Source: Phycisphaerae bacterium
GTDB lineage: Bacteria; Planctomycetota; Phycisphaerae; Tepidisphaerales; Tepidisphaeraceae
Direction: 5' to 3'
DNA: 35,985 nucleotides
NCBI GenBank assembly: GCA_025924315.1
Contig: JAICIO010000053.1
Span: 1-35,985 of the forward strand
Position 1 is the first letter of the stretch, and each line of letters opens with the position of its first letter. The notes under the pieces were generated by a model. The model searched no databases, had not been told where the DNA came from, and saw only the letters and a program-made list of their open reading frames with translations. A program made the translations under genes and the position numbers. Shown piece by piece: positions 12,970-29,283 of this stretch.

Positions 12970-13022
12970 AGTTGCAGCAAACGACGTGCCCGATATGCAC
13001 GATTTGTAAATGGGCTGGAGCT

Positions 13023-14561
13023 ATGCAGTTAACACAATCAGCTTCGATGCGGATGGAGCAGCGGCAGCTCCTCACGCCGCGGATGATCCAGAGCATGGAG
13101 ATCCTCCAGCTGCCGCTTCTGGCGCTGGAAGAACGCATCGAACAGGAGATGCAAAACAATCCCGTCCTTGAGATCCGCGAAGGCGATACGGATGGAGAAA
13201 GCGCATCGGCTGACACCACCGCCGACAATGCCTCTGACGCCACCGAAGCCTCCACACAATTCTCCGAAGAAGAACGTCCCTTGCTCGTAAAGGAAAACTC
13301 CGATCAGGCCGAAGACTTCGACCGCCTCGCCCGCATTAGCGACTACCTCGAGAACGAAGAATTCTCCGCCAACGGTTCCTCGAGCTTCCGCCAAGCTTCC
13401 AGTTTCGACGGCGAGCGCGACAAGAAGCTCGACGCGATGAACAACACCGCCGCCCGCGGTGAGAACCTCAGCGAATATCTCCTCGATCAATGGGCGTTTG
13501 TCGAAACCACGCCCGAGATCAAACGCGCCGGCGAAGTGCTGATCAACTTCGTCGACGCCGAGGGTTACCTCCGCACCGACCTCGAACAGATTCGCGCCGA
13601 AACGAAAAATCCGCCGCTGCTCGAGCATCTCCAGACTGCGTTGAAACTCCTTCAAGGCTTGGAGCCCGCAGGCGTCGCCGCGCGAAACCTCAGCGAGTGT
13701 CTTCTGCTCCAGCTCGACGCCCTCGCCGAAGATCCCGAAGCGTCGGAAGGCCACGACTTCGAACTCGAGCGCGCCCTCGTCACCGATCATCTCAAAGACC
13801 TCGAGATGAATCGCTATCCGCAGATCTCCAAAAAACTCGGCCGCGACATCGAAGACCTCAAGGCTGCGGTGAAGCGCCTCAGCCGGCTTCATCCGCACCC
13901 CGGCAAGCAGATCGGCGCCGACGAAGCTCCGCCGATCACGCCCGACGCTTCGATCTACTTCGACGAAGACAAAGGCACCTACGAAATCGAGATGAAGAAC
14001 GATCCCGCGCCGAACCTATACATCCGCGGGATGTATCGCAAGATGCTCAAGGAGCGCAAGTGCGACAAGAGCACGCGCGAATTCCTCGCCAACAACATTC
14101 GCAACGCGCGCTGGCTAATTGAATCGATCGAACAGCGCCGCAGCACGATCCAGCGCGTCATTCGCGCCGTCGTCGACGCGCAAGTCGATTTCTTCGACAA
14201 AGGCCCCGAGCACCTCAAGCCCCTGCCGATGATCCAGGTGGCCGACCAGCTCGGCATCCACGTCGCCACCGTCTCTCGCGCCGTCAGCGAAAAATGGATT
14301 CAAACCCCGAGAGGCGTCTTCCCCTTGCGCCGCTTCTTCTCCGGCGGAACGACCAACGCCGAAGGCGAAGACATGAGCTGGGACGCGGTGAAGGAAAAGC
14401 TCAAGGTCATCATCAACGAAGAAGACAAAAAGAACCCGCTCAACGACGACGAGATCGTCGTGAAACTCTCCGAACAAGGCCTCACCCTCGCGAGAAGAAC
14501 CGTCGCGAAATACCGCAAAATTCTCAACATCCCGACCGCACGTCAGCGGAAACAGTTTTAG
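13023..14561 (+). CDS. rpoN: RNA polymerase sigma-54 factor
   Basis: The 512-residue protein has the complete RpoN layout. The N-terminal activator-interacting region I is Gln-rich (MRMEQRQLLTPRMIQSMEIL, LALEERIEQEMQNNPVLE), followed by an acidic region II (about residues 45-130). Next comes the core-binding domain (LSEYLLDQW, ALKLLQGLEPAGVAARNLSE), then the helix-turn-helix segment (QVADQLGIHVATVSRAVSEK, TPRGVFPLRRFFS). The C-terminal RpoN box LARRTVAKYRKILNIP recognises the -24 element. Sigma-54 holds polymerase in a closed complex until an AAA+ activator hydrolyses ATP; no such activator is encoded here. The ATG at 13023 has GGAG two bases upstream, which is close. An in-frame TTG at 12972 would add 17 residues not seen in the family. 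Its TAG overlaps the TAA of the convergent PKD gene. Confidence 0.95.
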   Translation: MQLTQSASMRMEQRQLLTPRMIQSMEILQLPLLALEERIEQEMQNNPVLEIREGDTDGESASADTTADNASDATEASTQFSEEERPLLVKENSDQAEDFDRLARISDYLENEEFSANGSSSFRQASSFDGERDKKLDAMNNTAARGENLSEYLLDQWAFVETTPEIKRAGEVLINFVDAEGYLRTDLEQIRAETKNPPLLEHLQTALKLLQGLEPAGVAARNLSECLLLQLDALAEDPEASEGHDFELERALVTDHLKDLEMNRYPQISKKLGRDIEDLKAAVKRLSRLHPHPGKQIGADEAPPITPDASIYFDEDKGTYEIEMKNDPAPNLYIRGMYRKMLKERKCDKSTREFLANNIRNARWLIESIEQRRSTIQRVIRAVVDAQVDFFDKGPEHLKPLPMIQVADQLGIHVATVSRAVSEKWIQTPRGVFPLRRFFSGGTTNAEGEDMSWDAVKEKLKVIINEEDKKNPLNDDEIVVKLSEQGLTLARRTVAKYRKILNIPTARQRKQF

Positions 14562-15832
14562 TTCACAAGTTGATCGTTCGAATCGATCGTACCCCACAGA
14601 CCAATCGGATTGACCGCGAAGGCCCGCGCCATTAGTGCGCTCGTCATCACCGGTTGATAGACACGATGCGGCATCGCGGCCTTGGCCAGATCGTCGTCCA
14701 CGACCGATTTCGCCGGGCGATGCTGCTTCTTCTGCCGATGAACGGTTTCCTGCGAATCGTCAGTGCTGATCACCACGATCGCGGGTCCAGGTGGAACTAC
14801 CGGTCGCGGCGTCACGACGATTTGCTGGCTGTAGGTGAACTTCTCTCCAATGCTCGTGTAACCAGTGAGCTCCATCGTGTACGTGCCTGCTTCTTCGAAC
14901 GTGTCCGGGAACGTCGGGCCGCCTGCCTGTGACGACCCGCGATAGTTGAACCATGAGAACCACGGATCGTCGCTCGGCACTTCGTCGTTCACCACGTGCG
15001 CCGTAACGCTGAACGGCTGTCCCGCCTGAACCGTCGTTGGGGCAACAACGTTCATCACCGACGTATGTTCGATCGCGGTCACATTGATGACAGTGATCGT
15101 GCTGTCGCCGTCATCGTCGGTCACGCGCGCGGCGAATTGAAACTTCCCCGCGTGGTCGAAATTGAAGCGAATGTTGTCCTTCACTACGTCGCTGTCGAAC
15201 GTGACGCCGTCGTAATTCAGATCCCAATCGATGACGCATTGATCTTCCTGCGACGCACGCTCGCGGCGGAAATAGCCGTCGCCGAAATTCGGCGATGTGC
15301 CGACCATCACGTACTTTGGATAGTAGATTGCGAGTTGTGGCTTCGTGTCCCGCACGCGCATGATGTCGGTGACGGTGCTGCTGGCACCGTATTGATCTGT
15401 CACATGAAGCGTCACCGGATAATCGCCGGGCAGATCGCGGTAGCCAAAGTTCGCTTCGATGCCTGTCTGCTCAAACACTCCGTCATTATCCGTATCCCAT
15501 TCGTAGGTCAGCGGCTCGCTGGCGCCATCGGGATCGAACGATTTCCTCGCATCGAGCGTGTCGCCGAAGTTTTCGTCTTCGAAGTGGATTCCCGGCAGCG
15601 CAGAACCGCGCTGCACCAAATCGCCGTGACTTCCGCCAGCGATTCGATCGCGCTCAGGGACGCCGGCCACTGGTCGTGGGGCGCTCCTCGGATGCAGTTC
15701 GAAAAGGTGTTCTGCGATGACGCGAAGGGCTTGTGGTTTAGTCCCGGCGGCGCGGTCGCGATTCGCGTGTGGCTGCCGTAATGCGCGCGACTTCGCGGCG
15801 TGATCGAAACTCGTTAACCTTTCATCGTGCAT
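14558..15832 (-). CDS. PKD-type surface protein, probably truncated at its 5' end
   Basis: The convincing part runs from about 15,600 to the TAA at 14558-14560. It contains tandem PKD-like Ig-fold modules: LDARKSFDPDGASEPLTYEW with DTDNDGVFEQ, then DLPGDYPVTLHVTDQYGASS, then a module with CVIDWDLNYDGVTF and FQFAARVTDDDGDS, and a third with TFEEAGTYTMELTGYTS. Such domains mediate adhesion or spacing in extracellular proteins. The first 70 or so residues encoded from the ATG at 15832 look non-coding: Arg/His-rich, no signal peptide, no third-position GC bias, and a better coding pattern on the opposite strand. A GTG at 15616 would give 352 residues, still without an export signal. I therefore suspect the true 5' end, with its signal peptide, is lost. 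The C-terminal 50 residues have no motif. It converges on rpoN with overlapping stops. Confidence 0.6.
   Translation of the reverse strand: MHDERLTSFDHAAKSRALRQPHANRDRAAGTKPQALRVIAEHLFELHPRSAPRPVAGVPERDRIAGGSHGDLVQRGSALPGIHFEDENFGDTLDARKSFDPDGASEPLTYEWDTDNDGVFEQTGIEANFGYRDLPGDYPVTLHVTDQYGASSTVTDIMRVRDTKPQLAIYYPKYVMVGTSPNFGDGYFRRERASQEDQCVIDWDLNYDGVTFDSDVVKDNIRFNFDHAGKFQFAARVTDDDGDSTITVINVTAIEHTSVMNVVAPTTVQAGQPFSVTAHVVNDEVPSDDPWFSWFNYRGSSQAGGPTFPDTFEEAGTYTMELTGYTSIGEKFTYSQQIVVTPRPVVPPGPAIVVISTDDSQETVHRQKKQHRPAKSVVDDDLAKAAMPHRVYQPVMTSALMARAFAVNPIGLWGTIDSNDQLVN
15607..15781 (+). pseudogene. 3' fragment of an unidentified plus-strand gene
   Basis: This frame ends in TAA at 15779-15781 and encodes about 57 residues that look like a genuine protein end: LRDAGHWSWGAPRMQFEKVF, CDDAKGLWFSPGG, AVAIRVWLP. 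The codons have the strong third-position GC bias of real genes here. Upstream of about 15,600 the same frame becomes plain antisense of the PKD gene, so the rest of this gene is absent. I could not identify the family. The fragment and the truncated PKD gene meet at about the same point, which suggests a deletion or rearrangement joint. Confidence 0.4.
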
Positions 15833-15862
15833 CAAACACCCAAGGGACCGAATCAGCCAGCG

Positions 15863-18301
15863 ATGAGCAGTTCAAGCGACGCGACGCCGTTGCGGTGGAA
15901 TCGGCGCACGCGCATTCTCATTCTGCTGGCGGGGTTGATCCTTCCGCAGTTTGTTCTGATCCGGCCGTCGGTCTTCGGCGGGAAAATTCTGTTGCCCCTG
16001 GATTTTCTGCAGCAGCCGCAGGTGTACTTGCCGATCGATCCGGCGCATCCGCCGCCGACGTTGCACGATCGGCTTACCTCGGACTTGGTTTATCTTTTCG
16101 AGCCGAATCGGCAATTCATTGTTTCGGAAATGCGCGCCGGGCGCGTGCCGCTGTGGAATCCCTATAACTACTGCGGCGTGCCATGCCTCGCGTCCGGTCA
16201 GGGCGCTGTCTTCTCGCCGCTGCGCGTACTCGATTATCTTTGGAATGATCCCGGGGTACTGGCGTGGGACCGCGTGCTGCGCGCGATCGTGATGGGCGTC
16301 GGCGCATATCTGTTCTTTCGCCGCGTGCTCGGCGTTGGCTTCGCGCCAGCGGCAATCGGCGCGTGGTGCTATCCGCTCACCGGATTTATGACGATCTGGG
16401 ACGGCTACACGCTGCCGATGGTGGCACTCTGGCTGCCGTGGATGCTCTTGTCGATTGAAGAAACGATTCGCGCGCCGCGCAGTGGATGGCCGATTGCGCT
16501 CGCGCTCTCGACCGCAGCGATGATCTTGAGCGGGCATCCGGCGATGTCGCTGCACGTGATGGCGGTTTCCGGTTTGTTCGCCGTGTGGCGCGTCGTCGCG
16601 CGTGGCGCCTGGACCGCGCCGATTGCCCTTGGGCTGGCGACGTTCTGCGGCATTCTCCTCGCCTGCCCGCAGATCCTTCCGTCCGCCGAATATCTAAACC
16701 ACAGTTATCGCGTGGCGCAGCGCCGCGCGGGTGTGCAGGAGCCGAATTCCGAAGGCCCGCAGGCGCTGCTGCAGATGGTGCTCCCCTATTACTACGGCTC
16801 AAATCTGGGCGAGTCGTTCTATGTCATTACGAAGAGCAACCGTCTCGAAAGCGGCGCCGCCGGGTACGCGGGGCTCATTGTGGCGCTCGTCCTTGCGCCG
16901 CTCGGATGGTTGAACCGACGCCTGCGCAGTTTCCAGGTTTTCTGGCTGATCCTTGGTTTCCTGGCCGTCGCAGAGATCAGTCGATTTCCCGTCCTCGGGT
17001 CGATGCTCGATCATCCGCCGTTTAGCGTTGCGCGCGGGAACCGCCTCGTGTTTGCGAGTGCGTTTGCAATTCTCGCGAGCGGCGTCGCAGGGCTTGAGGA
17101 ATTATTTTCTGCCCGGTCTCTGCGCCGCCGATGGCTGTGGTGCGTCTGCGCGGCGCTGCTCGTCCTGTGCGGCCTTGCCAGCTATCGCGCGTTTCAGCCC
17201 GAAGCCCAACTGGATCCGGTGCGCGCCGAGGCAAAGGCGAACATGGAGAGAGCAGGCACCTGGGCGGAGCAAAAGGATCATGTTGAGAGTGTGCTCGCGG
17301 CGGCGGTGCCGTCGTTCTGGGCAAACCATATGACCGAAGCGATCGTGTGCGGCGGCGCGCTCATCTTGCTGGGCCTCATTCAAATTGACTTCCTCTCGCC
17401 GCGTTCGCGCGGATCTGTGATCGCTGGCGCTGCAATCCTCGAGCTGATGGTCATGGCGTGGAACCTGAATGCGCAATGCGATTCACGGCTTTACTATCCA
17501 ACGCTTCCGGTTTTCCAGGTCCTGCGGAGTTTTCCACCCGCGCGGGTAATGATGATGGCAGCATTTCCCGCCGACCTGAATCTCACCCAGCGACTTTACG
17601 ACATTCGCGGATTCGACGGCGCCGATCCCGACGATTACGACGAGGTTTTGCAGCACATCATCATCCCCGGGACTTCGCCGGGCTATGCTCCGACGCAATC
17701 AATGGTGCCGTTGAACGGTCCCCTGTTCGATTCGCTCGGTGTGCGGTATGTCGTCTTCCGCGGTAGCCCTTCGATCAAGACAAACCTCATCTGGGTGGGC
17801 AACGATTATTGGATTCTGGAAAATCCCCGCGCCGCCCCGCGCGCGTTTGTCCCGAAGAGCGTGCGAACGCTGAATGATGACAAGTTGCAGCTCGACGAAC
17901 TCCTCCGACCGGATTTCGATCCGTCGCGCGCGTTCGTTGAACAGCCGAAGACGGCCATTCAGATGGACAATTGCGAAGGGTCGGTGCGGATCACGGCAGA
18001 GAATCCCGAGCGAATCGAGTTGTCAGCGAATATGAAGACGGACGGGTTCGTGCTGTTGTCCGACCGGTGGGACGGCGGCTGGCGCGCGACGGTGAATGGC
18101 AAGCCCGAAATCGTGTATCGCGCGAATCGCCTGTTCCGCGCCGTCCAAGTTCCCGCGGGCGCGAGCACAATTGTGTTCACGTATTCGCCGCTGAGCTTCA
18201 CCGTCGGGTGTTGGTGCGCGCTCACGGCACTCGGTGCGATCGTGTGGTGGGGACTACACAATCGGCGCCGCGCCCGAGCGCAAAGTTCGGATTTTGTTTG
18301 A
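15863..18301 (+). CDS. YfhO-like polytopic membrane protein
   Basis: The 812-residue protein has a first helix near residues 16-33 (TRILILLAGLILPQFVL), an extracytoplasmic loop with FEPNRQFIVSEMRAGRVPLWNPYNYCG, and roughly a dozen membrane helices. It ends in a soluble Ig-like domain of about 200 residues and a last helix (VGCWCALTALGAIVWWGL). The WNP.N..G.P...GQGAVF.P loop and the FVLLSDRWDGGWRATVNGK motif in the C-terminal domain are typical of the YfhO family. B. subtilis YfhO is implicated in adding sugars to lipoteichoic acid, using a lipid-linked donor. Here a role in surface-glycan modification is inference. I chose the ATG at 15863; a GTG at 15827 is in frame but its codons look non-coding, and neither has a clear Shine-Dalgarno. 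Confidence 0.82.
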   Translation: MSSSSDATPLRWNRRTRILILLAGLILPQFVLIRPSVFGGKILLPLDFLQQPQVYLPIDPAHPPPTLHDRLTSDLVYLFEPNRQFIVSEMRAGRVPLWNPYNYCGVPCLASGQGAVFSPLRVLDYLWNDPGVLAWDRVLRAIVMGVGAYLFFRRVLGVGFAPAAIGAWCYPLTGFMTIWDGYTLPMVALWLPWMLLSIEETIRAPRSGWPIALALSTAAMILSGHPAMSLHVMAVSGLFAVWRVVARGAWTAPIALGLATFCGILLACPQILPSAEYLNHSYRVAQRRAGVQEPNSEGPQALLQMVLPYYYGSNLGESFYVITKSNRLESGAAGYAGLIVALVLAPLGWLNRRLRSFQVFWLILGFLAVAEISRFPVLGSMLDHPPFSVARGNRLVFASAFAILASGVAGLEELFSARSLRRRWLWCVCAALLVLCGLASYRAFQPEAQLDPVRAEAKANMERAGTWAEQKDHVESVLAAAVPSFWANHMTEAIVCGGALILLGLIQIDFLSPRSRGSVIAGAAILELMVMAWNLNAQCDSRLYYPTLPVFQVLRSFPPARVMMMAAFPADLNLTQRLYDIRGFDGADPDDYDEVLQHIIIPGTSPGYAPTQSMVPLNGPLFDSLGVRYVVFRGSPSIKTNLIWVGNDYWILENPRAAPRAFVPKSVRTLNDDKLQLDELLRPDFDPSRAFVEQPKTAIQMDNCEGSVRITAENPERIELSANMKTDGFVLLSDRWDGGWRATVNGKPEIVYRANRLFRAVQVPAGASTIVFTYSPLSFTVGCWCALTALGAIVWWGLHNRRRARAQSSDFV

Positions 18302-18373: not shown

Positions 18374-19573
18374 GTGATCCGGCGAATCATTCTCGAAAAC
18401 TACATGTCGCACGCCCGCACGGTGATCGAGCCGGCGGCGGGGTTGACGGTGCTGATCGGGCCCAATAACTGCGGAAAATCTGCCGTGGTTTCCGCATTGG
18501 AAACGCTCGCGCGCGACACGCGCGGCGATTTCATGGTGCGCCATGGCGAGAAGCTGTGCAGTGTGACTGTCGAAACCGATGACGGCCACACGATCACCTG
18601 GAAGCGGAAAAAGAACACGGCCAGTTACGAGATCGACGGCCGTGAAGTGCATCGCGTCACACCAAACGATCTTCACCAGCATTTGAAGCTCCCGCTGGTC
18701 ACCTCGGACCGGAACAGCGACGACTTCGAGATCCATTTCGGCGAACAGAAGTCGCCGATCTTTCTGCTGAATGGCCCCGAGAGCCAGACTGCGACGTTTT
18801 TCTCCGCTTCGTCCGATGCGGGCCGGCTGCTCGAAATCCAGGATCGTCATCGCGAGAAAATCCGCGATCGGAAACGCGATCGGGCGGCCTGTTTGAAGGA
18901 GATCGCGCGACTGGAAGATCAGGCATCGCGGCTTGAGAGCCTGGCGGATGCGAACGTCGAGCTCGCGAAACTTGAGACGGAGCACGAGGCACTTCTTCGC
19001 GAGGCGCAGGCATTGGCAACGCTTGAGGCGACGGTTGCGAAGCTTGAAGCGTTCGGCCGGCTCATCGTCGAGCGACGCGACAAGAGCGAAACGTTCCGCG
19101 ATCTTTCGCTTCCACCGGAATTGCACGCGACTGCCGAAATGCAGCGGCTGATCAATGAGATCGAAAGTTGCGCGGGCAAAGCGTCGCGTGCTGGTGAGGA
19201 AATTGCGGCATCGGAAAAGCTCGAACATCCACCCGAATTGATTGATGAGCGCGAGCTGAAAAGTGCGATCGGCAAAATCATGGCGGCGCGCATTGCGCTG
19301 GCGAAGCCGATGCAGACGGCGAAGGCGCTCGTGGTCTTGCACGATCCGCCCGCGATGATCGATCCAGCGGCGCTCGATGCGACCTGCAATGCAATTGCGA
19401 CCGCGCGGGCGGTGCATGAGCGCGCGGTTCGTCATACGAAAGATGCAACGAACGCGCTGCACAAAGCCGAGCAAGAGATCCGGGAGTGGATCGAGGCGAA
19501 TCCGTCGTGCCCCATTTGCGGCGGCGTGGTGACGACCGAAGCACTGCTGGAAGGCAGGCATGCGCATGCGTAA
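18374..19573 (+). CDS. Rad50/SbcC-like ATPase, N-terminal half ending in a zinc hook
   Basis: The 399-residue protein opens like Rad50, SbcC and RecF family ATPases: MIRRIILENYMSH, then a Walker A at residues 29-36 (GPNNCGKS). A lobe-I region follows with FGEQKSPIFLLNGPES near 120-140, the expected place for the Q-loop. From about residue 150 to 375 it is largely charged helix, with heptad-like coiled coil. At 379-384 it has CPICGG, the CxxC zinc-hook motif found at the tip of the Rad50 coiled coil, and it ends only 15 residues later. It has no ABC signature, Walker B or H-loop; these are on the fourth gene of the operon. The start is GTG 18374, with GGAGGAAGGG upstream. Its end overlaps the phosphoesterase start by 14 bp. 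I infer it forms one ATPase together with the product of 20768-21454. Confidence 0.85.
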   Translation: MIRRIILENYMSHARTVIEPAAGLTVLIGPNNCGKSAVVSALETLARDTRGDFMVRHGEKLCSVTVETDDGHTITWKRKKNTASYEIDGREVHRVTPNDLHQHLKLPLVTSDRNSDDFEIHFGEQKSPIFLLNGPESQTATFFSASSDAGRLLEIQDRHREKIRDRKRDRAACLKEIARLEDQASRLESLADANVELAKLETEHEALLREAQALATLEATVAKLEAFGRLIVERRDKSETFRDLSLPPELHATAEMQRLINEIESCAGKASRAGEEIAASEKLEHPPELIDERELKSAIGKIMAARIALAKPMQTAKALVVLHDPPAMIDPAALDATCNAIATARAVHERAVRHTKDATNALHKAEQEIREWIEANPSCPICGGVVTTEALLEGRHAHA

Positions 19574-20504
19574 GGATTACGCGGGAATTCTCTGCGTTGG
19601 CGATCCGCATTTGGCGACGCGTCCGCCGGGATTTCGCAAGGATGACTATGCGAAAGCGATTCTCGCGAAGCTGAAGTTCTGCGCCAACCACGCGCGCGAA
19701 AACCGATTGCTGCTCGTCCTGCTCGGCGATCTGTTTCATCACCCGCGCGACATCTCGAACTGGATGCTTGTCGAGCTGATCTCGCTCTTTGGTGATGAGC
19801 CCGCGTACAGCGTCGCGGGAAATCACGATTGTCATGAGAATTCGCTGACCGATGACGACACGTTATCGGTTCTCGCGGCCGCGGGCGCAGTTCGGCTCCT
19901 CGATCGATCACCGTGGCGCGGTGATATGAATGGTTGCAAGGTTGCCATCGGCGGGACGAGCTGGGGACAAAGCCTGCCGAAGCAATTCGATCGAGACGGC
20001 GCGGGTCGCGTTTTCTGGATCACGCATCATGACGTGCGCTTTCCCGGTTACGAAGATACCGGTCGATTTGGGTGCTATGAGATCGACGGCATCGACGTGG
20101 TCATCAATGGCCACATTCACCGCACGCTGGACGATGTGACGGTCGGGCGGACGACGTGGATGAATCCGGGCAATATCGGCCGCGTGGGCCGTAGCGGGAT
20201 CACGCGCGCGCACAAGCCGGCGGTGTTGCGATTCAATGTTTCGTCGGATGGGCATTCGTGCGAGCGTATCGAAGTGCCGCATCAACCGTTCGATGACGTG
20301 TTCCACGCCGTCGTTGAATCCGAGAACGTTCCCGCGGAGCAGTCCGGGTTCATCCAGAATCTCGCGGCGCTGCTGGCTCAGCGCACGGCGAGCGGCGCGG
20401 GGCTGGAACAGTTTCTCGATCGCAATCTCGGTCAGTTCGATCCGCGCGTCGCAAGTGAAATTCGTCTGCTCACGCAGGAGGTGCTGAGCCATGGTCAGCA
20501 ATGA
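19560..20504 (+). CDS. SbcD/Mre11-like metallophosphoesterase
   Basis: The 314-residue protein shows the five phosphoesterase motifs of Mre11/SbcD: GDPH at 14-17, GDLFHH at 56-61, GNHDCH at 87-92, THHD at 155-158 and NGHIH at 183-187. These ligate two Mn ions and cut DNA ends or hairpins. A C-terminal part of about 90 residues (QPFDDVFHAVVESENVP onward) is where Mre11 proteins usually bind the Rad50 coiled-coil base. It is shorter than E. coli SbcD (about 400 residues) and nearer to phage Mre11-type enzymes. GGAAGG lies 5 bases before the ATG at 19560; ATG 19566 is an alternative. Overlaps of 14 bp with both neighbours indicate translational coupling with the two ATPase parts, which supports a Mre11-Rad50 complex. 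Confidence 0.88.
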   Translation: MRMRKDYAGILCVGDPHLATRPPGFRKDDYAKAILAKLKFCANHARENRLLLVLLGDLFHHPRDISNWMLVELISLFGDEPAYSVAGNHDCHENSLTDDDTLSVLAAAGAVRLLDRSPWRGDMNGCKVAIGGTSWGQSLPKQFDRDGAGRVFWITHHDVRFPGYEDTGRFGCYEIDGIDVVINGHIHRTLDDVTVGRTTWMNPGNIGRVGRSGITRAHKPAVLRFNVSSDGHSCERIEVPHQPFDDVFHAVVESENVPAEQSGFIQNLAALLAQRTASGAGLEQFLDRNLGQFDPRVASEIRLLTQEVLSHGQQ

Positions 20505-20784
20505 AGAGCCGCAGGACATCGAGATGCTCAAGAAGCGTCATCGCGATCTCGACCGGAAGAAAACGACGGCCGAGGCGAATCAGCGCTCGGCGGAGGAGTC
20601 GCTCGCCAAGCTCAAAGCCGAGGCGAAAGACAAGTACGGCACCGACGATCTCGACCAGCTGAAGCATAAGCTCGACGAGATGAGGCAGCAGAATCTGCAG
20701 AAGCGTCGCGAGTATCAGGCCCATCTCGATTCAGTCGACACGAAGCTCGCGGAGATCGAGAAGAAGTATGATGGACAGGGATAG
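20491..20784 (+). CDS. Small coiled-coil protein inside the split Rad50/Mre11 operon
   Basis: The 97-residue product is almost wholly charged helix: LKKRHRDLDRKKTTAEANQ, ESLAKLKAEAKDKYG, LKHKLDEMRQQNLQKRREY, VDTKLAEIEKKYDGQG. No enzyme motif or cysteine is present. The gene is real by context: a near-perfect AGGAGGTG (20476-20483) sits 7 bases before the ATG, and it overlaps the phosphoesterase by 14 bp and the ATPase C-half by 17 bp. It lies between the hook-bearing N-half and the nucleotide-binding C-half. It may therefore supply part of the return strand of the Rad50 coiled coil, or be an accessory clamp. Both are inferences. I know of no named family. Confidence 0.82.
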   Translation: MVSNEEPQDIEMLKKRHRDLDRKKTTAEANQRSAEESLAKLKAEAKDKYGTDDLDQLKHKLDEMRQQNLQKRREYQAHLDSVDTKLAEIEKKYDGQG

Positions 20785-21454
20785 CGCACAACTCGATGTT
20801 CCGTCGCCCGTCGCGCTTCGAAAGCGCTGCGATCGGTTGCTGTGGCACCAGCAGCAGGCTGCGAAATCGCTTGCGAATGAGCGCGCGAAGCTTGCGCAGA
20901 TCGACGAATATCTTGCGATCGCGCCGGCCGTCGATGAAGCGCTCGACAAGCTAAGCGAAGAGATGTTCGGCTCGCTCACGAAGGTGATCGAGCAGCAGCT
21001 CACGGTCGCGCTGCAGGAGGTGCTGGATCAGCCGGATCTGACGCTGAAGGTCGAGCGCGAGTTCAAGCGCGGCGCCGCGACGATGCGGTTTCATATCGAG
21101 CGCAACGGCAATCGCGAAGACATCATGAAAGGCCAGGGTGGGTCGGTCGCGAATGTGCTGTCGGTCGGGTTGCGGCTGTTTGCGCTGACGACGCTCGATC
21201 CACAGAAGCATCGGCGCTTTCTCGTGCTCGACGAGCAGGATTGCTGGCTGAGACCGGACCTCGTGCCGGCGCTGGTGAAAATGGTCCGCGACGCGGGACG
21301 GGCGCTGGGGTTTCAGGTCATCATGATCAGCCATCACGATCTTGGAATCTTTGAGCGATATGCGGATCGCATTTATCGATTCACGCCATCAAGCGAAGGC
21401 GTGAAAGTCGAATGCGCGATGGCCCCACCTCCTGAAGCGGACAGTGCCACTTAA
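20768..21454 (+). CDS. Rad50/SbcC-like ATPase, C-terminal half
   Basis: The 228-residue protein starts at ATG 20768 (ATG 20771 also possible). It begins with about 50 residues of helix suited to a coiled coil, then carries the second lobe of an ABC-type DNA-repair ATPase. A signature-like segment lies at about 122-137 (GQGGSVANVLSVGLRL), in place of the usual LSGGE motif. A Walker B follows at 151-156 (FLVLDEQ), with the catalytic-type Asp-Glu, and an H-loop at 188-191 (SHHD). There is no Walker A, which is supplied by the product of 18374-19573. In Rad50 dimers the signature of one subunit completes the ATP site of the other, so the two genes are expected to make one working ATPase head. GG-x-VANVLS-type signatures occur in some phage-encoded ATPases. 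The stop codon falls in the loop of a hairpin at 21440-21465. Confidence 0.82.
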   Translation: MMDRDSAQLDVPSPVALRKRCDRLLWHQQQAAKSLANERAKLAQIDEYLAIAPAVDEALDKLSEEMFGSLTKVIEQQLTVALQEVLDQPDLTLKVEREFKRGAATMRFHIERNGNREDIMKGQGGSVANVLSVGLRLFALTTLDPQKHRRFLVLDEQDCWLRPDLVPALVKMVRDAGRALGFQVIMISHHDLGIFERYADRIYRFTPSSEGVKVECAMAPPPEADSAT

Positions 21455-22379: not shown

Positions 22380-22860
22380 CATGCTCGTGCAGTTGCTGAA
22401 GCTTCCGCCGATCGAACCGCTCATTTCGGAGATGCGCGAAAACGGCGTGATCATCCGGCGGGCGATGGCGCACGAGATCTCGCGCGTGCGCGAATTCGTT
22501 GAGAAAACCTTCAGCGTCGCTTGGGCGGATGAGATCATGGTCGCCTATTCGAACAAACCGGTATCGCTCTTCATCGCCATTCGCGATGGCGAAGTGATTG
22601 GTTTCGCGGCGTACGAGACGACGCGTCGCGGTTTTTTTGGACCGACGGGCGTTGCTCCAACCGAGCGGGGCAAATACATCGGCAAAGCGCTGCTTCTCGC
22701 AAGTCTGTGGGGTTTGCGCGAAATGGGATACGTGTACGGAATCATCGGCGGCGCGGGACCGATCGATTTTTACGCGAAGCACTGTGGGGCAACGGTGATC
22801 CCAGAGAGCGAGCCTGGGATCTATGCCGATCCGCTCAAGAAACCTACTGCACCGACATAA
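22372..22860 (+). CDS. GNAT-family N-acetyltransferase
   Basis: The 162-residue protein begins at the ATG at 22372, with GGGAG 7 bases upstream; earlier in-frame codons belong to the overlapping upstream gene. It shows the GNAT fold order: an N-terminal strand and helix (GVIIRRAMAHEISRVREFV), the beta4 strand (SLFIAIRDGEVIGFAAYET), the acetyl-CoA-binding loop (GPTGVAPTERGKYIGKALLL, a variant of the Q/RxxGxG/A loop), and a final FYAKHCGATVIPES. Such enzymes move an acetyl group from acetyl-CoA to an amine; the substrate cannot be told here. The last 17 bp overlap the convergent TadG-like gene. Confidence 0.88.
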   Translation: MPDMLVQLLKLPPIEPLISEMRENGVIIRRAMAHEISRVREFVEKTFSVAWADEIMVAYSNKPVSLFIAIRDGEVIGFAAYETTRRGFFGPTGVAPTERGKYIGKALLLASLWGLREMGYVYGIIGGAGPIDFYAKHCGATVIPESEPGIYADPLKKPTAPT

Positions 22861-24043
22861 TCTCGCTGCTGCTCGATCCAAGGCTGCTGAGCGTTTCGTC
22901 GTTAAAAAGCTGGCAATCGTCGTTGAGGGTGATGTTCTTGAAGAGCATCGTGCCGCCGAAATAAAAATCATTGTCTGCGACGAAGCTTGCCGAGGGTCCG
23001 AAGAATTGTGCGCCGATCGAGAAGAAATCGTGAACCGTGAACGTCGTGCCGGACGCCTGATTCCACACTAGATTTCCAGCTTTCAATCCGTACGGAATGA
23101 TGAGGCAGCGATCGTGGGCGGTGAAGTTGCCGTTCATGTTGATCGTCGCGACGCCGGTGAACGTGACGCTGTCATCGTCACCCATCGTGAACGAAGTGAA
23201 GTAATACGTCCCGCCCGGCCAGCTGACATTGCCACTGATCGTCGGGGTCGCGGACACGCCGCCGGGGTTGGACGAGGAGCTCATGGCGGTCTGCGTCGGC
23301 GTTGGGAGATTCGTGCCCAAATTGTGCGCCGTTCCGTGTATCAGGCCATTGCTTGTCACGGTGCAATTCCGTCCTCGATATTCGTCGCCCCAGAGATTTC
23401 CCGACGTACCGAGGTCGATTGAACCGTTGGATCCCAGCTCGCCGTTATTGGAGTGATAGCCGGTGTATTGGCTGGGTATCAGGATTGAGTTGGAGTTGTA
23501 ACTGGCGAGGTACAAACCCGAGTGAGCGACGAACTTCGTGAGCCCGGTTATGGATGGGTCCGGTTGCGGGATATATGCAATCGACGCCGCCTTTACGTCG
23601 CAGGTCGATTGTCCAATTACTCGGCCATACGCAAGCGTGATCGCATTCGACGTGGCATTTGTTCGCCGCGCGGTGACGCGAATAGCATTTGCACTGGCGT
23701 ACGCGCCGCTGCCGAGATTGGTGAACGTCTTGGCGATCGGATCCCAGGTTCCATAGTCGATGTCGGTCGAGGTGCTGATCGACACGGCGGTGCCATCGCA
23801 CTTGTTTGCGGCGGCGATGTTCACCGCGGCGTTCTGGATCGTCGTGAGGTTGCTGCCGTTGGAAAGCTCGGAAGCCGCGGCGCGGGCAGCTGCGTCCGCG
23901 GCGCGCATCAGCTCGGTCTTGGCCAGCTGCACCTTCCCGAGATCCACCGCCAGCGAGACGAATGCGCACAGCGCCACCATCGCGATGACCGCATAGATCA
24001 GCGCGAGACCGCTGTGTCGACGAACATGCCGAGAACGTGGCAT
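22844..24043 (-). CDS. TadG-like surface protein, paralogue A
   Basis: The 399-residue protein has a short basic leader (MPRSRHVRRHSG), then a membrane helix (LALIYAVIAMVALCAFVSLA) and VDLGKVQLAKTELMRAADAA. This is the N-terminal TadE/TadG anchor pattern, which places the rest outside the membrane. A domain shared by all five paralogues follows to about residue 160 (DIDYGTWDPIAKTF, ANAIRVTARRTNA, YGRVIGQSTCDVKAASIAYI). The C-terminal part, about 240 residues and rich in Gly/Asn/Ser/Thr, contains GSIDLGTSGNLWGDE, WPGGTYYFTSFTMGDD, ATINMNGNFTAHDR and FYFGGTMLFKN, a stacked beta-strand pattern. It closely resembles paralogue B next door. There is no Tad ATPase, secretin or prepilin peptidase gene here. 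Its role (pilus-tip, surface layer or adhesin) is inference. Confidence 0.82.
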   Translation of the reverse strand: MPRSRHVRRHSGLALIYAVIAMVALCAFVSLAVDLGKVQLAKTELMRAADAAARAAASELSNGSNLTTIQNAAVNIAAANKCDGTAVSISTSTDIDYGTWDPIAKTFTNLGSGAYASANAIRVTARRTNATSNAITLAYGRVIGQSTCDVKAASIAYIPQPDPSITGLTKFVAHSGLYLASYNSNSILIPSQYTGYHSNNGELGSNGSIDLGTSGNLWGDEYRGRNCTVTSNGLIHGTAHNLGTNLPTPTQTAMSSSSNPGGVSATPTISGNVSWPGGTYYFTSFTMGDDDSVTFTGVATINMNGNFTAHDRCLIIPYGLKAGNLVWNQASGTTFTVHDFFSIGAQFFGPSASFVADNDFYFGGTMLFKNITLNDDCQLFNDETLSSLGSSSSEIMSVQ

Positions 24044-24138
24044 TATGTCTTACATCGACCTGCCACGGCCGGAGCTAAGGAACCTCTCAGCAAAAATTGA
24101 CTGCGATCGGCGTTTATCGGCCCTTGCGCGTGCCACCG

Positions 24139-25329
24139 TCAATGCACTGACTCCACTGAAGTGCTGATGCGGCTGGAATCACTCAACGTCTCGTCCCAAT
24201 ACAGCTGTGCCGCATCGTGCAGTGTGACGTTCTTGAAAACCATCGATCCGCAAAAATACAGACGATCGTTCGCAACCAAATTTGCCCGCGAGCCAACGAA
24301 TTGTCCCGCGAGAATGCAGTCATTGCCGACCGTGATCGTTGTGCTGTCTGCCTGATACCAGGTGAGCGTACTCGGCTTCCAGGCGCCGGTCAGAATCTTT
24401 GAACGGTCGTTCATCGTGACATTGCCGTTCATGTAGATTGTCGCCGTGTCCGTGAACTGAATGATGGCGTCGGCCGCCAGGGTCAGCGACGAAAAGTAGT
24501 AGGTTCCGCCTGGCCAGAGAACCAAGCCGCTGACGATGGGTGTTGTGGAAACGCCACCCGGATTGATCACCGACGTCATCGTCGGCGTGGTGGGCGTTGC
24601 GATGCTGATGGGCATGACGTGCTTGGTGCCGTGAACAATCCCGTGGTTGAGATCAACTGCAGAACGACCGGCCCATTGGTCGCCGTACAGATTGCCGCTG
24701 GTTCCGAGATCGATCGATCCATTTCCCCCGAGCGTCGCGTTGTTGTTGTGATAGAGCATCGTCGGCACTGGCCAGACGTTTGGGTTATAGCTTGCGACAA
24801 ACAAGTTGGAGTACGCCGCGAAATTCGTCAGACCGGTAATGCCGGGCGGCGGGTCAGGAACGTAGGCGATAGCGGATGCCTTCACATCGCAATTCGCCAG
24901 ACCGAGGATTCGCCCGTACGCCAGCGGGATCGGATTCCCGCGCGCGCTCGTGCGGCGCGCGGTGATCTGAATGGCGTTCGCACTCGTGTAGGAAGTGTTC
25001 GCAAGCGCGGTGAAGGAGCCAGTGGAAGAATCCCACGTCCCGAATTGCAGATCGTTTGTGGAATCGAGCGCGATGGAGGTGCTGTCGCACTTGTTGGCGG
25101 CGGCGATGGCGACCGCGGCATTCTGGATGGTGGTAAGATCGCTCCCCTTTTTCATTTCCGCGGCGGCCGCGCGGGCGGATGCGTCGGCGGCGCGCATCAG
25201 TTCGGTCTTGGCAACCTCTACCCGGCCGAAGTCAACCGCGAGCGACACGAATGCACAGAGCGCAACCATCGCGATGACCGCATAGATCATTGCGAGTCCG
25301 CGACGGGATGGACAAATCCCCCGGTACAT
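24139..25329 (-). CDS. TadG-like surface protein, paralogue B
   Basis: The start is the ATG at 25329: GAGG lies 7 bases upstream and the product opens MYRGICPSRRGLAMIYAVIA, in register with paralogue D (MYRSRKRGIAALYMIV). An upstream ATG at 25362 would add 11 residues. The 396-residue protein matches paralogue A along its whole length: the anchor helix with VDFGRVEVAKTELMRAADAS, the shared block (DLQFGTWDSSTGSF, ANAIQITARRTSA, YGRILGLANCDVKASAIAYV), then GSIDLGTSGNLYGDQ, WPGGTYYFSSLTL, ATIYMNGNVTMNDR and YFCGSMVFKNVTL. The similarity suggests a recent tandem duplication. The gap to gene A is 95 bp with no clear terminator, so the pair may be co-transcribed. Confidence 0.82.
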   Translation of the reverse strand: MYRGICPSRRGLAMIYAVIAMVALCAFVSLAVDFGRVEVAKTELMRAADASARAAAAEMKKGSDLTTIQNAAVAIAAANKCDSTSIALDSTNDLQFGTWDSSTGSFTALANTSYTSANAIQITARRTSARGNPIPLAYGRILGLANCDVKASAIAYVPDPPPGITGLTNFAAYSNLFVASYNPNVWPVPTMLYHNNNATLGGNGSIDLGTSGNLYGDQWAGRSAVDLNHGIVHGTKHVMPISIATPTTPTMTSVINPGGVSTTPIVSGLVLWPGGTYYFSSLTLAADAIIQFTDTATIYMNGNVTMNDRSKILTGAWKPSTLTWYQADSTTITVGNDCILAGQFVGSRANLVANDRLYFCGSMVFKNVTLHDAAQLYWDETLSDSSRISTSVESVH

Positions 25330-25402
25330 ACAAACCTCATCGTCGCACGGATACAGCGACATAACTCGATGAGATGCGTATTCATGTCATGTCGGTACGA
25401 AA

Positions 25403-25436
25403 AAGTGCCCACGGTTTGCACGACCGCGGGCACTTA
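25403..25436 (-). terminator. Terminator after paralogue C, with two further hairpins beside it
   Basis: The arms at 25403-25415 and 25423-25435 pair over 13 bp with one mismatch. On the minus strand the stem runs into a T-rich tract (complement of AAAAGT at 25401). Two more hairpins lie between it and the stop at 25530: 25436-25460 (9 bp with one bulge) and 25486-25521 (13 of 14 bp). Confidence 0.7.
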
Positions 25437-25529
25437 TGGGACTCGCACACACGAGCCCATGGGAGGAGATGTTCTGGTGAGTGATGATTGGTGATTGATA
25501 TTCATGGATCAATCACCCATCACGATCGT

Positions 25530-26612
25530 TCATTTGACGATGAGAAGTTTGTCCGGGCGGTTGACGCGGACGTTGCGCTGGCCGGAGTTGTTGTTCCATT
25601 CGAAGAAGTCCCACGTCGCGAGGAACAGGCGCGTCGCACCTGGGGGAACCTGGAACTGCTGCTTCACGCCGTCCTTGGTCAAGCCGTCGCCGATGAAGAA
25701 GAGCTGCTTGAGCTTCGGCTGGTTGATCACATGATTACGCTTCTCGTCGGTTGAATAATCAAGCATGTCCGGATGGTTCGTGAGGTTGGGCTGATTCTCA
25801 TCGAGGAACACACCCACCAGCGCATTGATCGGAGCGCGGAGCTGCGAGATTCCGTTTTCCGCGCCGTTGGTGTTCGTGCCGATGTCGTCGAGCTCGCCGT
25901 CCGGCGCGTAGTCGGCCAGGTTCGGATCGTGACGCGCGTCGCCGCTGATCGAATCGAACGTGAGCAGATCACCGGTGCTCAGCGGCAGGGCCACCTGCAG
26001 CGGCGACTGGAGCGGATTCGTGGCGGTGCCGGCATAGTCCGGGCTGTTGTGCGGGTTGTTCAGGCTGGCGACGCTGCCCGCCGGCATGCCCGACAGATAC
26101 GGATTCGCCGTCGCGGAGATGTTGTCGTCGATGTGCACGCCGGGGATGAACTCGACGATGGTTTCGGCTTGGACGTCGCACGTGTTCTGCCCGAGAACGC
26201 GGGCGAACATCAGCGGAACCGACGTGCCGCGCGCGGTGATTCGCCGGGCGGTGACGTGCACCGCGTTGCAGGTGCTGATGTCGGTGGAGGTCGTCGCTTT
26301 GAACTTCTTGTCGCTTGGGCTCCACGTGCCGAATTCGATGTCCTTGACCTGGTCGAGGACCACCGGCGTGCCGTCGGCCTTGTTGTAGCCGGCATATTCG
26401 ACGGCCTTTGCGATGGCCGCGGACCTGGTCGCGCGGAGCTGGCTGGCCGCAGCGAGAGCGCCGCTGTCGGCGGCGCGGCGCAGCTCCGCTTTCACGAGCT
26501 GCACATGGCCGAAATCGACGGCCAGCGAACACAGGGCGCACAGCCCGATCATGATCACGATGGTGTAAACCATCGCGATGCCGGTTCGATCATTCTGACG
26601 TTTGCGTGACAT
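25530..26612 (-). CDS. TadG-like surface protein, paralogue C, with a different C-terminal domain
   Basis: The start is the ATG at 26612, with GGGGAGA 7 bases upstream. The frame stays open to 27101, but that part only shadows paralogue D. The 360-residue protein has the common anchor (TGIAMVYTIVIMIGLCALCS, VDFGHVQLVKAELRRAAD) and the shared proximal block (DIEFGTWSPSDKKF, CNAVHVTARRITA, FARVLGQNTCDVQAETIVEF). After about residue 180 it diverges: NGISQLRAPINALVGVFLDE, FFIGDGL, QFQVPPGATRLFLATWDFFE and WNNNSGQRNVRVN. This resembles the carbohydrate-binding-like beta-sandwich seen in LecA-type lectins and in some PEP-CTERM proteins (PAGATxLFL...NNxGxxxVxV). A sugar-binding role is inference. 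The gap to upstream gene D is 28 bp, so D and C form an operon. Confidence 0.82.
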   Translation of the reverse strand: MSRKRQNDRTGIAMVYTIVIMIGLCALCSLAVDFGHVQLVKAELRRAADSGALAAASQLRATRSAAIAKAVEYAGYNKADGTPVVLDQVKDIEFGTWSPSDKKFKATTSTDISTCNAVHVTARRITARGTSVPLMFARVLGQNTCDVQAETIVEFIPGVHIDDNISATANPYLSGMPAGSVASLNNPHNSPDYAGTATNPLQSPLQVALPLSTGDLLTFDSISGDARHDPNLADYAPDGELDDIGTNTNGAENGISQLRAPINALVGVFLDENQPNLTNHPDMLDYSTDEKRNHVINQPKLKQLFFIGDGLTKDGVKQQFQVPPGATRLFLATWDFFEWNNNSGQRNVRVNRPDKLLIVK

Positions 26613-26640
26613 ATTCGTCTCCCCGAACTTTCTGGCGGCG

Positions 26641-27840
26641 CTATTGGACAACGATGATCTTCTTGACGAACGGCGCGGACATTTTCTCGTCGTAATGCAC
26701 CGATCCCGAGCCGGTGATGGTGACGGTTTTTCCGACGAGTTGGCCGAAAATGTCCGTCGTGCCCGTGAGCGTGACAGTCGCGAGTGGCGCGTAGAGGTCG
26801 ACGTAGATCGCGGAATTCCCGGAGAATGTCGCGCTCGTGTGCGAATTGAGGAGAATGATCTGAAGGTTCTGCGCGATCCCCTGATATGCATCGGATCCGC
26901 CGGTGAGCGTGAGGTTGCCGGCGACGTAGATTGTGACGGGCCCGCTGACGCTTGCGTTGATCTTCGCACCACCGGAGGCGGTGAAGTCCTGGAAGTAATA
27001 GACCCCCGCCGGGAACTGCACGCTGCTCTGCCCGTTGATTGAGAAGCTGCCGTCTTTAACGTATTGCGAGACCGCGGTGTTGTTGTTGACGAACTGCGCA
27101 AGACCGGCGCTAAGCGGCGGCTTCACGATCGGCTCGCTCAGTGAATCCTTCGAGCCGGTGACATTTCCGCCGATGACGTTGTACCCTTCGCCCGGACTCG
27201 CGTCACCGTCGATGGTGGCGCTGCCACTCAGCATGATGTTGCCGTTGCTCGCGACGTTGCCGTGCGAGAGGTGCGTGGACGATGAGTACGGTCCGTCACT
27301 CGACTTGTAGCTGTCGGTTGACGCAGTCCCACTCATCGAGACGGAGTCGAGGCCGATGATGCCGTATCCACTGCCGCCTTTGGTCAGTAGTGCGATCGAA
27401 GTAGCGCTCACGTCGGTCGATTCGACGCCGAGCACGCGGGCGAACAGAAGTGGCACCGCGTTGGCCCGTGCAAAGCTGCGGCGGGCGATCACCCGAATTG
27501 CATTCGCGGCAGTGAGGCTCGAACCGCTTAGCGGCGTAAACTGCTTGGTGGTTGACGACCAGAGCCCAAAGTCGATGTCGCTGGCGGGATCAAGCACGAC
27601 GGGCGTGCCGTCGGCATTGTTGAGCCCCGCGTATTTGACGGCGAGCGACCTGGCGGTTTCAACGTCAGCGGGCACGGAAGACGCGCCCGCGCGGGCGGCG
27701 GCATCGGCGGCGCGACGCAGCTCGGTTTTGGTGAGCTGCACGCGGCCGTAGTCCACAGCGAGTGACGCCGCACCACACAACAGCGCCATCAAAACGATCA
27801 TGTACAGCGCGGCAATGCCGCGCTTGCGTGAGCGGTACAT
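26641..27840 (-). CDS. TadG-like surface protein, paralogue D
   Basis: The 399-residue protein starts at the ATG at 27840, with GGGAGGA upstream. The anchor reads MYRSRKRGIAALYMIVLMAL then VDYGRVQLTKTELRRAADAA. The shared block has DIDFGLWSSTTKQF, ANAIRVIARRSFA and FARVLGVESTDVSATSIALL. The C-terminal 240 residues follow the pattern GIIGLDSVSMSG, TDSYKSSDGPYS, GNVASNGNIMLSGSATIDGD, QFPAGVYYFQDF, GPVTIYVAGNLTLTGG, IDVDL-like YVDLYAPLATVTLTGTTDIF and GQLVGKTVTITGSGSVHYDE. This resembles the DUF7305-type beta-helical domain found after TadG-like anchors. It pairs most closely with paralogue E. It is first in a likely operon with C. Confidence 0.82.
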   Translation of the reverse strand: MYRSRKRGIAALYMIVLMALLCGAASLAVDYGRVQLTKTELRRAADAAARAGASSVPADVETARSLAVKYAGLNNADGTPVVLDPASDIDFGLWSSTTKQFTPLSGSSLTAANAIRVIARRSFARANAVPLLFARVLGVESTDVSATSIALLTKGGSGYGIIGLDSVSMSGTASTDSYKSSDGPYSSSTHLSHGNVASNGNIMLSGSATIDGDASPGEGYNVIGGNVTGSKDSLSEPIVKPPLSAGLAQFVNNNTAVSQYVKDGSFSINGQSSVQFPAGVYYFQDFTASGGAKINASVSGPVTIYVAGNLTLTGGSDAYQGIAQNLQIILLNSHTSATFSGNSAIYVDLYAPLATVTLTGTTDIFGQLVGKTVTITGSGSVHYDEKMSAPFVKKIIVVQ

Positions 27841-27898
27841 CGGTCCTCCCAGGTTCTAGCAAAGGGTGTCAGAGAAGAGGGTGACCCTGGCCGGGTCG

Positions 27899-28030
27899 CG
27901 CGGGCGTTACGATACGAACGCCCGCGGTGCAAATTCTCTCCGACGAGCAAATATGCACCGCGAAATCAAGCCGACTAAATTGAGAAAATGATTAGCGGAC
28001 GCAAAAGCGAGCGATGACGGTCCGCTTAAT
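27899..28030. repeat. Hairpins between paralogues E and D
   Basis: There is a perfect 10-bp stem at 27899-27926 (CGCGGGCGTT paired with AACGCCCGCG). A second stem pairs 27991-28000 (ATTAGCGGAC) with 28020-28030 (GTCCGCTTAAT, one bulge). On the minus strand the second stem is followed by CATTTTCTC, so it may terminate paralogue E. The rest of the 273-bp gap must hold the promoter of D; I see no other feature. Confidence 0.5.
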
Positions 28031-28113
28031 GGGAATATGCACGAGATGCGGAAGGCGGCGCATCCCAACGGGAGCGCAGAATGCGGGGGCGATCGAAACG
28101 CTGAGCAGAGGAC

Positions 28114-29283
28114 TTAGTGGACGAGTTGGATCGCGCCCCCGCTACCATTGAGCGCTTCGTCGAAGTGCACGCCGCCCTGCCAGCTGCCGCTGAAGTTCAA
28201 GGTTTTGGCGATGATCGAGCCGTAAATATCCGCGGCGCCGCTCTGTGTGACGGTGCTCATGGGCGCATAGATCTTCGCATAAAGATCCGCCTGGCCGCTG
28301 AGGCTCATTGTTGTTCCGTTCGTCAACATGAAGATCTGCAAGTTCGCCGGAATGTTCTGATACGTTTTGATGTAGCCGCCGCTCATCGTCATGTTTCCGC
28401 TGACGTAGAGCCGAACAGGCCCCTGCAGATACATGGTCGCGGAACCGGAGATGTTCACGCTCGTCGCGTAATAATCGCCGGCGGCGACGTAGCTGCTCCC
28501 ACCGGTGACGTTCACCGCGCCGAGCGAGGTGTAGGTCGCGGGGAGCGTAGGCGCGGGATATACCATCGCCGTCGAGAGAACTTTTTGCGACCCGAGGATG
28601 GTGGAACCGGCGCTCTTCGACGCAGTCTTTCCCGATGGCAGGTAAACGTTGCCGTCAACGATGGAATTTCCGCTCAGATTGATGCTGCCGTTGCTCGCGA
28701 TGGAGCCGAGATGCCCGCTCGTCACCGGGGGATAGGTCCCAGTGCTGGAGTTGTAGCTGTCGGTGTTTCCGTTGCCGGAAATGGTCACGGAATTCAGACC
28801 AACCAGCCCGTAGGCTGGGCTGCAATAGGCGATGCCGGAGGTTTCGACATCGAATGTCTGGCATCCCAATACGCGCGCAAACGTGAGTTGGAGCGGGTTG
28901 CCGTTCGCAGTCGTTCGTCGGGCCCAGACGCGAACGGCATTGGCACTCGATTGCGAAGCGCCGGTCAGAACGGTGAACGTCCCACTCGATGTATCCCAAC
29001 TGCCAAAGTCGATATCGCTCGTGCGATTGAGCGTGAGTGTTCCACCATCAACTGAATTCAACGACGCGATACTGATCGCCGCATCCTGTGCCGCGGTCAC
29101 GCCGCTGCCGAGCTTTGCGACCGCCGCCCTCGCCGCTGCGTCGGCATTGCGCCTCAGCTCCGTCTTCGCGAGCTGCACGTGACCGAAATCCACCGCAAGT
29201 GAAACAAACGCGCAAAAGAGAACGAGCGCAATCGCTGCGTAGACGAGAACGGTCCCGGCCTGCCGCTGGGAAAAAGGTCGCAT
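28114..29283 (-). CDS. TadG-like surface protein, paralogue E
   Basis: The 389-residue protein has the anchor QAGTVLVYAAIALVLFCAFV with VDFGHVQLAKTELRRNADAA, and the shared block (DIDFGSWDTSSGTF, ANAVRVWARRTTA, FARVLGCQTFDVETSGIAYC). The C-terminal part closely follows paralogue D: YGLVGLNSVTISGNGNTDSY, GSIASNGSINLSGNSIVDGN, YVAAGDYYATSVNISGS, GPVRLYVSGNMTMSGG, ANLQIFMLTN, DLYAKIYAPMSTVTQSGAA, DIYGSIIAKTLNFSGS and VHFDEAL. This is a repetitive beta-strand layout typical of right-handed helices or polymer-forming surface proteins. It lies 87 bp downstream of the ABC gene on the same strand. The Shine-Dalgarno before ATG 29283 is weak. Confidence 0.82.
   Translation of the reverse strand: MRPFSQRQAGTVLVYAAIALVLFCAFVSLAVDFGHVQLAKTELRRNADAAARAAVAKLGSGVTAAQDAAISIASLNSVDGGTLTLNRTSDIDFGSWDTSSGTFTVLTGASQSSANAVRVWARRTTANGNPLQLTFARVLGCQTFDVETSGIAYCSPAYGLVGLNSVTISGNGNTDSYNSSTGTYPPVTSGHLGSIASNGSINLSGNSIVDGNVYLPSGKTASKSAGSTILGSQKVLSTAMVYPAPTLPATYTSLGAVNVTGGSSYVAAGDYYATSVNISGSATMYLQGPVRLYVSGNMTMSGGYIKTYQNIPANLQIFMLTNGTTMSLSGQADLYAKIYAPMSTVTQSGAADIYGSIIAKTLNFSGSWQGGVHFDEALNGSGGAIQLVH

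Follow-up and report, generated by a model that had tools for sequence, protein, structure and literature searches.

The four overlapping genes described here, P1 to P4, lie in a 35,985-nucleotide stretch of DNA (the window) from a Phycisphaerae bacterium (GenBank assembly GCA_025924315.1, contig JAICIO010000053.1). They form an operon on the + strand (18374-21454) that very likely encodes a four-subunit Mre11-Rad50-type complex with a naturally split Rad50, which would do the job of SbcCD in DNA-end processing. In the usual description, Rad50 or SbcC is one chain whose two ends come together as an ATPase head, which sits at one end of a long antiparallel coiled coil. In the window, the two halves of the head are separate gene products. 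P1 (399 amino acids (aa), 18374..19573) is assigned as the N-terminal half of the split Rad50 from its open reading frame (ORF), Pfam match, structure model and alignment; P2 (314 aa, 19560..20504) as an Mre11/SbcD-like metallophosphoesterase from Pfam and motif alignment; P3 (97 aa, 20491..20784) as a helical hairpin from a 36-row alignment; and P4 (228 aa, 20768..21454) as the C-terminal half of Rad50 from its model and fold matches. An earlier interpretation made from the letters alone (the sequence-only reading) had proposed that the operon encodes a complex like Mre11-Rad50 in which two genes share the Rad50 head. Recurring operons, the matching occurrence of the two genes, naturally fused P4-P1 proteins and fold matches now support this proposal strongly.

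P1 consists of an ATPase N-lobe, a long helix, helical repeats punctuated by PP, and a zinc hook at the C-terminus. Pfam AAA_23 matches it with 45.9 bits. The Walker A motif, GPNNCGKS (residues 29-36, 18458..18481), is anchored by G29, N31, N32, G34, K35 and S36, all invariant in an alignment of 46 sequences. Q125 (18746..18748), in the segment HFGEQKSPIFLL, is also invariant in these 46, and the conserved HFGEQ stretch that contains it probably represents the Q-loop. The zinc-hook motif CPICGG (residues 379-384 of 399, 19508..19525) has cysteines C379 and C382 that are at least 90% conserved in the same alignment, and a C-terminal CxxC is found in 45/46 bacterial and 19/20 phage P1 proteins. 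In one phage P1 ORF of 706 aa (L154:4609-6729, IMGVR_UViG_3300037264_000327), the Walker A motif is seemingly broken by an intein-like insert, which ends ...EGHLVTHN ahead of TALIRAIF.

P4 carries the complementary elements, as seen in an alignment of 66 sequences: i) a signature-like motif, GQGGS (residues 122-126, 21131..21145), in which G122, G124, G125 and S126 are invariant and which reads GQGGS in 61 of the 66 proteins and GxGGS in the remaining five; ii) a Walker B motif, FLVLDE (residues 151-156, 21218..21235), with L154, D155 and E156 invariant and the pattern hhhhDE in 66/66; and iii) an H-loop, SHH (residues 188-190, 21329..21337), with S188, H189 and H190 invariant. Homologues of the C-half with a Walker A of their own were looked for, and the pattern GxxxxGK[ST] was found in 0/66 aligned P4 proteins. 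Thus the elements of a Rad50-type ATP-binding cassette (ABC) head, namely Walker A, Q-loop, signature (GQGGS), Walker B and H-loop, are present across P1 and P4 jointly. The sequence-only reading had assigned Walker A and CPICGG to the first gene and the remaining signature, Walker B and H-loop to a fourth gene without Walker A; both assignments hold, the signature being a non-canonical one. Curated family models give weak or partial matches to the window proteins.

The structure models agree with this division. The P4 model, built with 66 rows, has a predicted local distance difference test score (pLDDT) of 90.6 and shows a helix (residues 14-86) followed by a Rad50 C-lobe. Its top solved matches (Foldseek, VIA) are the C-half chains of P. 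furiosus Rad50, 9a9j_B and 1f2u_B, the latter with Z 12.8 and root-mean-square deviation (rmsd) 2.9 over 143 aligned positions. The P1 model (pLDDT 82.6) has an N-lobe that resembles the N halves of SMC, RecF and Rad50, and aligns with 1f2u_A at Z 10.6 and rmsd 3.1 over 125 positions. Since 1F2U was solved with the head halves as separate chains, P1 and P4 correspond to the two chains of one known head. In a viral structure library, the top matches of P4 and P1 (A0A8S5ME05 and A0A8S5MDN9) both come from Siphoviridae sp. ctYh54, and another pair of P4 and P1 matches (A0A516LLJ2 and A0A516LLJ5) are neighbouring accessions. Against phrog_77, an SbcC-like phage profile, P1 aligns to positions 298-640 and phage P4 to 757-951, without overlap. 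The viral library also shows separate short Rad50-like N or C halves for Tunisvirus, an ascovirus and Listeria phage LMTA-148, which may be true splits, introns or breaks in the annotation.

P2 is a calcineurin-like phosphoesterase (Pfam Metallophos, 42.2 bits). The sequence-only reading had credited it with all SbcD/Mre11 motifs, and motifs I-V (DxH, GD, GNHD, H, GHxH) are indeed all present and invariant, with D15, H17, D57, N88, H89, H156, H185 and H187 unchanged in 40 sequences. Its conserved C-terminal region, residues 262-310, seems to resemble a Rad50-binding region. P3, which the sequence-only reading left undescribed, is a conserved helical-hairpin subunit that usually precedes P4; its YGTDD-type turn is conserved across the 36-row alignment, and the hairpin, as opposed to a single long helix, is read from the sequence pattern.

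A search of genome contigs with P4 yielded 105 confirmed relatives, of which the loci of 80 were examined. Most belong to Planctomycetota and Desulfobacterota, and others occur in single metagenome-assembled genomes (MAGs) labelled Bacillota, Chlamydiota, Verrucomicrobiota, Poribacteria, Sumerlaeia and others; the isolates among the relatives include Thalassoglobus, Rhodopirellula, Desulfacinum and Solidesulfovibrio. Wherever the flanks of the relatives were long enough, in Planctomycetota, Desulfobacterota and single MAGs of other phyla, the gene order is usually P1-P2-P3-P4. A search of both halves for conserved gene order, suggested in the sequence-only reading, recovers this order in several bacterial phyla, and in phage Mvi-JY20; that the arrangement returns in dozens of genomes is far more than chance would give.

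The two halves also occur together. Among Planctomycetota, P1 and P4 are found in the identical 18 of 294 genomes, one of which (G225) has the genes on a phage-like contig. Of 150 Desulfovibrionales genomes, 48 have both P1 and P4, 100 have neither, none has P1 only and two have P4 only, P1 being cut off by the contig end in these two. Fisher tests of the co-occurrence give p < 1e-28 (phylogeny ignored). Physical linkage is not needed, as P4 is retained with P1 even when unlinked: in the complete genome G013, ~197 kb separate it from P1-P2, while G449 and G422 have it on the opposite strand, ~5-8 kb away.

On megaplasmids the same parts are arranged differently. At ten proteobacterial loci (L175-L179 and L181-L185, among them pMPPla107 and the Methylorubrum extorquens AM1 megaplasmid), a single chain joins the two halves as P4-P1; its P4 part comes before Walker A, and its C-terminus bears a CxxC. 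One such fusion, at L179:6004-7971, is 656 aa long. P3 lies directly upstream in 9/10 and P2 directly downstream in 9/10, the P3 homologues being recognized with E-values of 9.5e-19 to 4e-5. Shifting the chromosomal P1-P2-P3-P4 cyclically gives the plasmid order P3-[P4-P1]-P2. On Bacillota megaplasmids (L186-L189, L180), P3 and P4 come after a P2-P1 fusion or after neighbouring P2 and P1 genes; Jeotgalibacillus has its P4 ~75 kb away on one and the same plasmid. These Bacillota genes are annotated as hypothetical, AAA ATPase or metallophosphoesterase. Several of the P4-P1 fusion loci are near genes for RecQ or another helicase, topoisomerase, RecJ or ligase.

Phages carry the split set as well. 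All five annotated phage records matched by P1 (vB_BboS-125, Mvi-JY20, Magritte, Tunturi_5 and the huge phage LR745208) are also matched by P4-type queries. The four genes of Mvi-JY20 overlap and are ordered as in the window. In Tunturi_5 the cluster is beside SSB, RuvC, UvsX and DnaB, and on the phage-like contig of G225 (C21, locus L126) it is within a module of RuvC-like, UvsX-like, HNH, PD-(D/E)XK, clamp and primase genes. A scan of viral contigs with the P1 alignment gave 23 relatives; the same scan with the P4 alignment gave no relative. In Bacillus phage vB_BboS-125, an AP2-domain gene, of a type frequent in homing endonucleases, sits between P1 and P3 (L160:6407-6979). A tree of the P1 head, P2 and P4 groups the bacterial sequences in a single clade (support 0.98), and a P4-only tree recovers the phage, plasmid and chromosomal sets as three monophyletic groups. 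The trees were rooted at the midpoint only, with no outgroup, so that an origin on phages or plasmids is inferred: the split form may have arisen on a phage or plasmid and since been retained on chromosomes.

In the window's genome, a whole-genome search gave no SbcC match (TIGR00618) and no SbcD match over cut-off (TIGR00619), which answers the question, raised in the sequence-only reading, of whether normal sbcCD is also present. The best other AAA_23 protein (1277-1280 aa, contig C57), considered as an SbcC, reads as a condensin-type structural maintenance of chromosomes (SMC) protein, and the stretch with the sole SbcD-like match (21.5 bits) reads as unrelated genes beside a generic phosphoesterase; both candidates were rejected. 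In Desulfovibrionales, SbcD over cut-off is found in 1/50 split-bearing genomes vs 21/100 others (p 0.001, uncorrected for phylogeny), and in Planctomycetota in 0/18 vs up to 27/276 (p 0.39).

Could the operon be an ordinary Rad50/SbcC that underwent simple fission after the hook, i.e., a nicked Rad50 in which P3 and P4 together supply a full-length returning arm? P1 does stop just past a hook-like motif, with 17 residues from the second hook Cys to the end in the window protein and 15-42 residues downstream of the hook in bacterial and 4-14 in phage P1 proteins, and P4 does open with helix 14-86. The stalk, however, is hard to reconcile with such an origin. It spans helices 149-242, 254-281, 293-320 and 331-375 in the P1 model (18818..19498), a long helix followed by helices of 28, 28 and 45 residues and then the hook. 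It is built of tandem 38-40-aa units (consensus PPELADTAPLARLIEQLEAAEARLARLRARAEALARLQ, 1-8 units per protein), and PP turns break it every 38-40 residues (88 of ~101 PP-to-PP intervals). P1 lengths vary among relatives from 382 to 756 aa (standard deviation (sd) 51 aa), whereas P3 (~105 aa, sd 5.6) and P4 (~232 aa, sd 13) are nearly constant and do not track P1 (r 0.03 and 0.02, respectively); P3 and P4 therefore cannot be a full-length returning arm. The hairpin pattern of P3, not that of one long helix, also speaks against simple fission, which is considered unlikely. The sequence-only description of a chain cut just after the hook thus fits the end of P1 but fails for the remainder, as no full-length arm returns from P3 and P4.

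A nuclease dedicated to defence against phages or plasmids, an SMC-like immunity system such as Lamassu or Wadjet in place of housekeeping repair, would be in keeping with the patchy spread across phyla and with the PADLOC ATPase profiles LmuB, AriA and mad3, which match P1 or P4. That SMC-like complexes are able to act in immunity (PMC10586767) is also counted in its favor. On the other side, P2 has no PADLOC match at E up to 1. The flanking genes are housekeeping genes shared between close relatives only; neither a fixed neighbour beyond the four genes nor a recurrent effector, integrase or defence gene was found across the relatives' flanks, which differ between groups. The split set recurs in many genomes of one genus (g117, family f37), as expected of a stable chromosomal gene, phages carry it within their own recombination modules, and there is near-exclusion with SbcD in Desulfovibrionales. 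A defence role is accordingly held to be improbable. That P1 and P4 belong to two distinct neighbouring ATPases, with P4 an inactive or regulatory remnant, could be suggested by the weak similarity of P4 to Pfam families (E 0.16 or worse), but the complementary motifs, the matching co-occurrence, the natural P4-P1 fusions and the invariance of Walker B and H-loop in 66 P4 sequences make this highly improbable. Still less credible is that the split reflects a frameshift, a misassembly or gene decay. The window's genome is a draft of 262 contigs (~97% complete), but the split falls at the same positions in dozens of independent genomes, among which are complete genomes, isolates and phages, and this conservation refutes an artifact.

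Certain observations weigh against a split Mre11-Rad50-type complex. The serine of LSGGE is replaced in the P4 signature. The topology of the P1 stalk is unlike the Rad50 coiled coil, and the predicted template modelling score (pTM) of the P1 model is 0.39, leaving the placement of the stalk relative to the rest uncertain. The P1 and P4 models are separate single chains. Finally, one Desulfovibrionales genome (G448) carries both the split set and SbcD. The sequence-only reading had left repair complex, phage-derived module and defence nuclease undecided; these are still the three choices, now narrowed, because the near-exclusion with SbcD in Desulfovibrionales, the housekeeping flanks and the phage relatives in recombination/replication modules favor DNA-end processing. 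The genomic evidence thus favors a putative housekeeping DNA-end-processing complex that replaces SbcCD over a defence system.

In the proposed mechanism, P1 and P4 would associate into one composite ABC head. Two of these heads would close on ATP; a P2 dimer would sit at the stalk base, and P3 might brace that base. The hooks at the C-terminal tips of P1 could pair via zinc and join complexes, while ATP binding and hydrolysis would gate P2 for DNA-end cutting and resection.

The four ORFs overlap by 14, 14 and 17 bp (P1/P2, P2/P3 and P3/P4, respectively), as the sequence-only reading had it. P1 starts with GTG, preceded by GGAGGAAGG. The good promoter candidate reported just upstream is unsupported, as a scan of the operon region for sigma-70-type promoters detected 0 vs 0.7 expected. 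Upstream of the operon are genes for a sigma-54 factor (12972-14561) and a YfhO-like membrane protein (15827-18301). Four consecutive Tad/TadG-like pilus-assembly genes, two with a DUF7305 domain, are on the - strand at 22844-29283.

More broadly, the split sets probably represent a widespread, unrecognised branch of Mre11-Rad50, characterized by a Rad50 split or circularly permuted at the head, a hairpin subunit and a repeat stalk with a terminal hook, which was born on phages or megaplasmids and replaced SbcCD on many Planctomycetota and Desulfobacterota chromosomes. Searches of the open-licence literature found no account of a Rad50 that is naturally split or permuted, which is no proof of absence. 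A natural two-polypeptide head, a permuted plasmid fusion and a stalk without a returning arm would reveal which parts of Rad50 are needed, and make it testable whether an uninterrupted coiled coil from head to hook is required for DNA-end processing. The split set is also a possible reason for the missing SbcCD in many Planctomycetota and Desulfovibrionales genomes, and it would allow consistent naming of genes now labelled "exonuclease", "ATPase", "chromosome segregation protein" or hypothetical.

Mre11/Rad50 fusion proteins were reported by Yoshida et al. in 2011 (PMC3175470), according to whom the fusions of Bacillus phage 0305phi8-36 and Anaerostipes are without one P-loop NTPase segment of SbcC; the passages on these two assign the absent half to no second gene. 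In related Bacillota plasmids, the segment described there as missing is a separate P4 gene; P4 thus probably accounts for the P-loop segment that some of the 2011 fusions lack. Phage equivalents of P1, P3 and P4 (vB_BboS-125 type) are already grouped in PHROGs as phrog_16465, phrog_18563 and phrog_15167. The window P1 and P4 match theirs with E 1.8e-14 and 8.6e-9, and P3 matches phrog_18563 weakly (E 0.71). There they are labelled "exonuclease", unknown and "ATPase", respectively, and are not treated as one split Rad50. The set differs from Lamassu (LmuABC) in that LmuB similarity is confined to P1, with no LmuA or LmuC found by PADLOC among the four proteins.

The set is like SbcCD/Mre11-Rad50 in having a five-motif Mre11-type nuclease, Rad50-type head halves, a CPxC zinc hook, and adjacent nuclease and ATPase genes. 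It is unlike them in that: i) the head is on two polypeptides, or, on megaplasmids, on one chain in the order C-half/N-half; ii) the hook is at the C-terminus of P1, not between two antiparallel arms; and iii) there are a PP-punctuated repeat stalk, a third small subunit and an unusual signature. The split set thus lacks two defining features of SbcCD, the single chain and the hook between two arms. As with T4 gp46/gp47 and phage SbcC/SbcD, the phage split relatives adjoin UvsX, RuvC, SSB and primase genes. In T4-type phages gp46 is a single chain; the split set differs in its divided chain and added P3. A precedent for assembly in trans is the catalytic domain of P. furiosus Rad50 (PDB 1F2T/1F2U), with the N and C halves as chains A and B. 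The split in that structure is man-made, whereas that in the window is natural.

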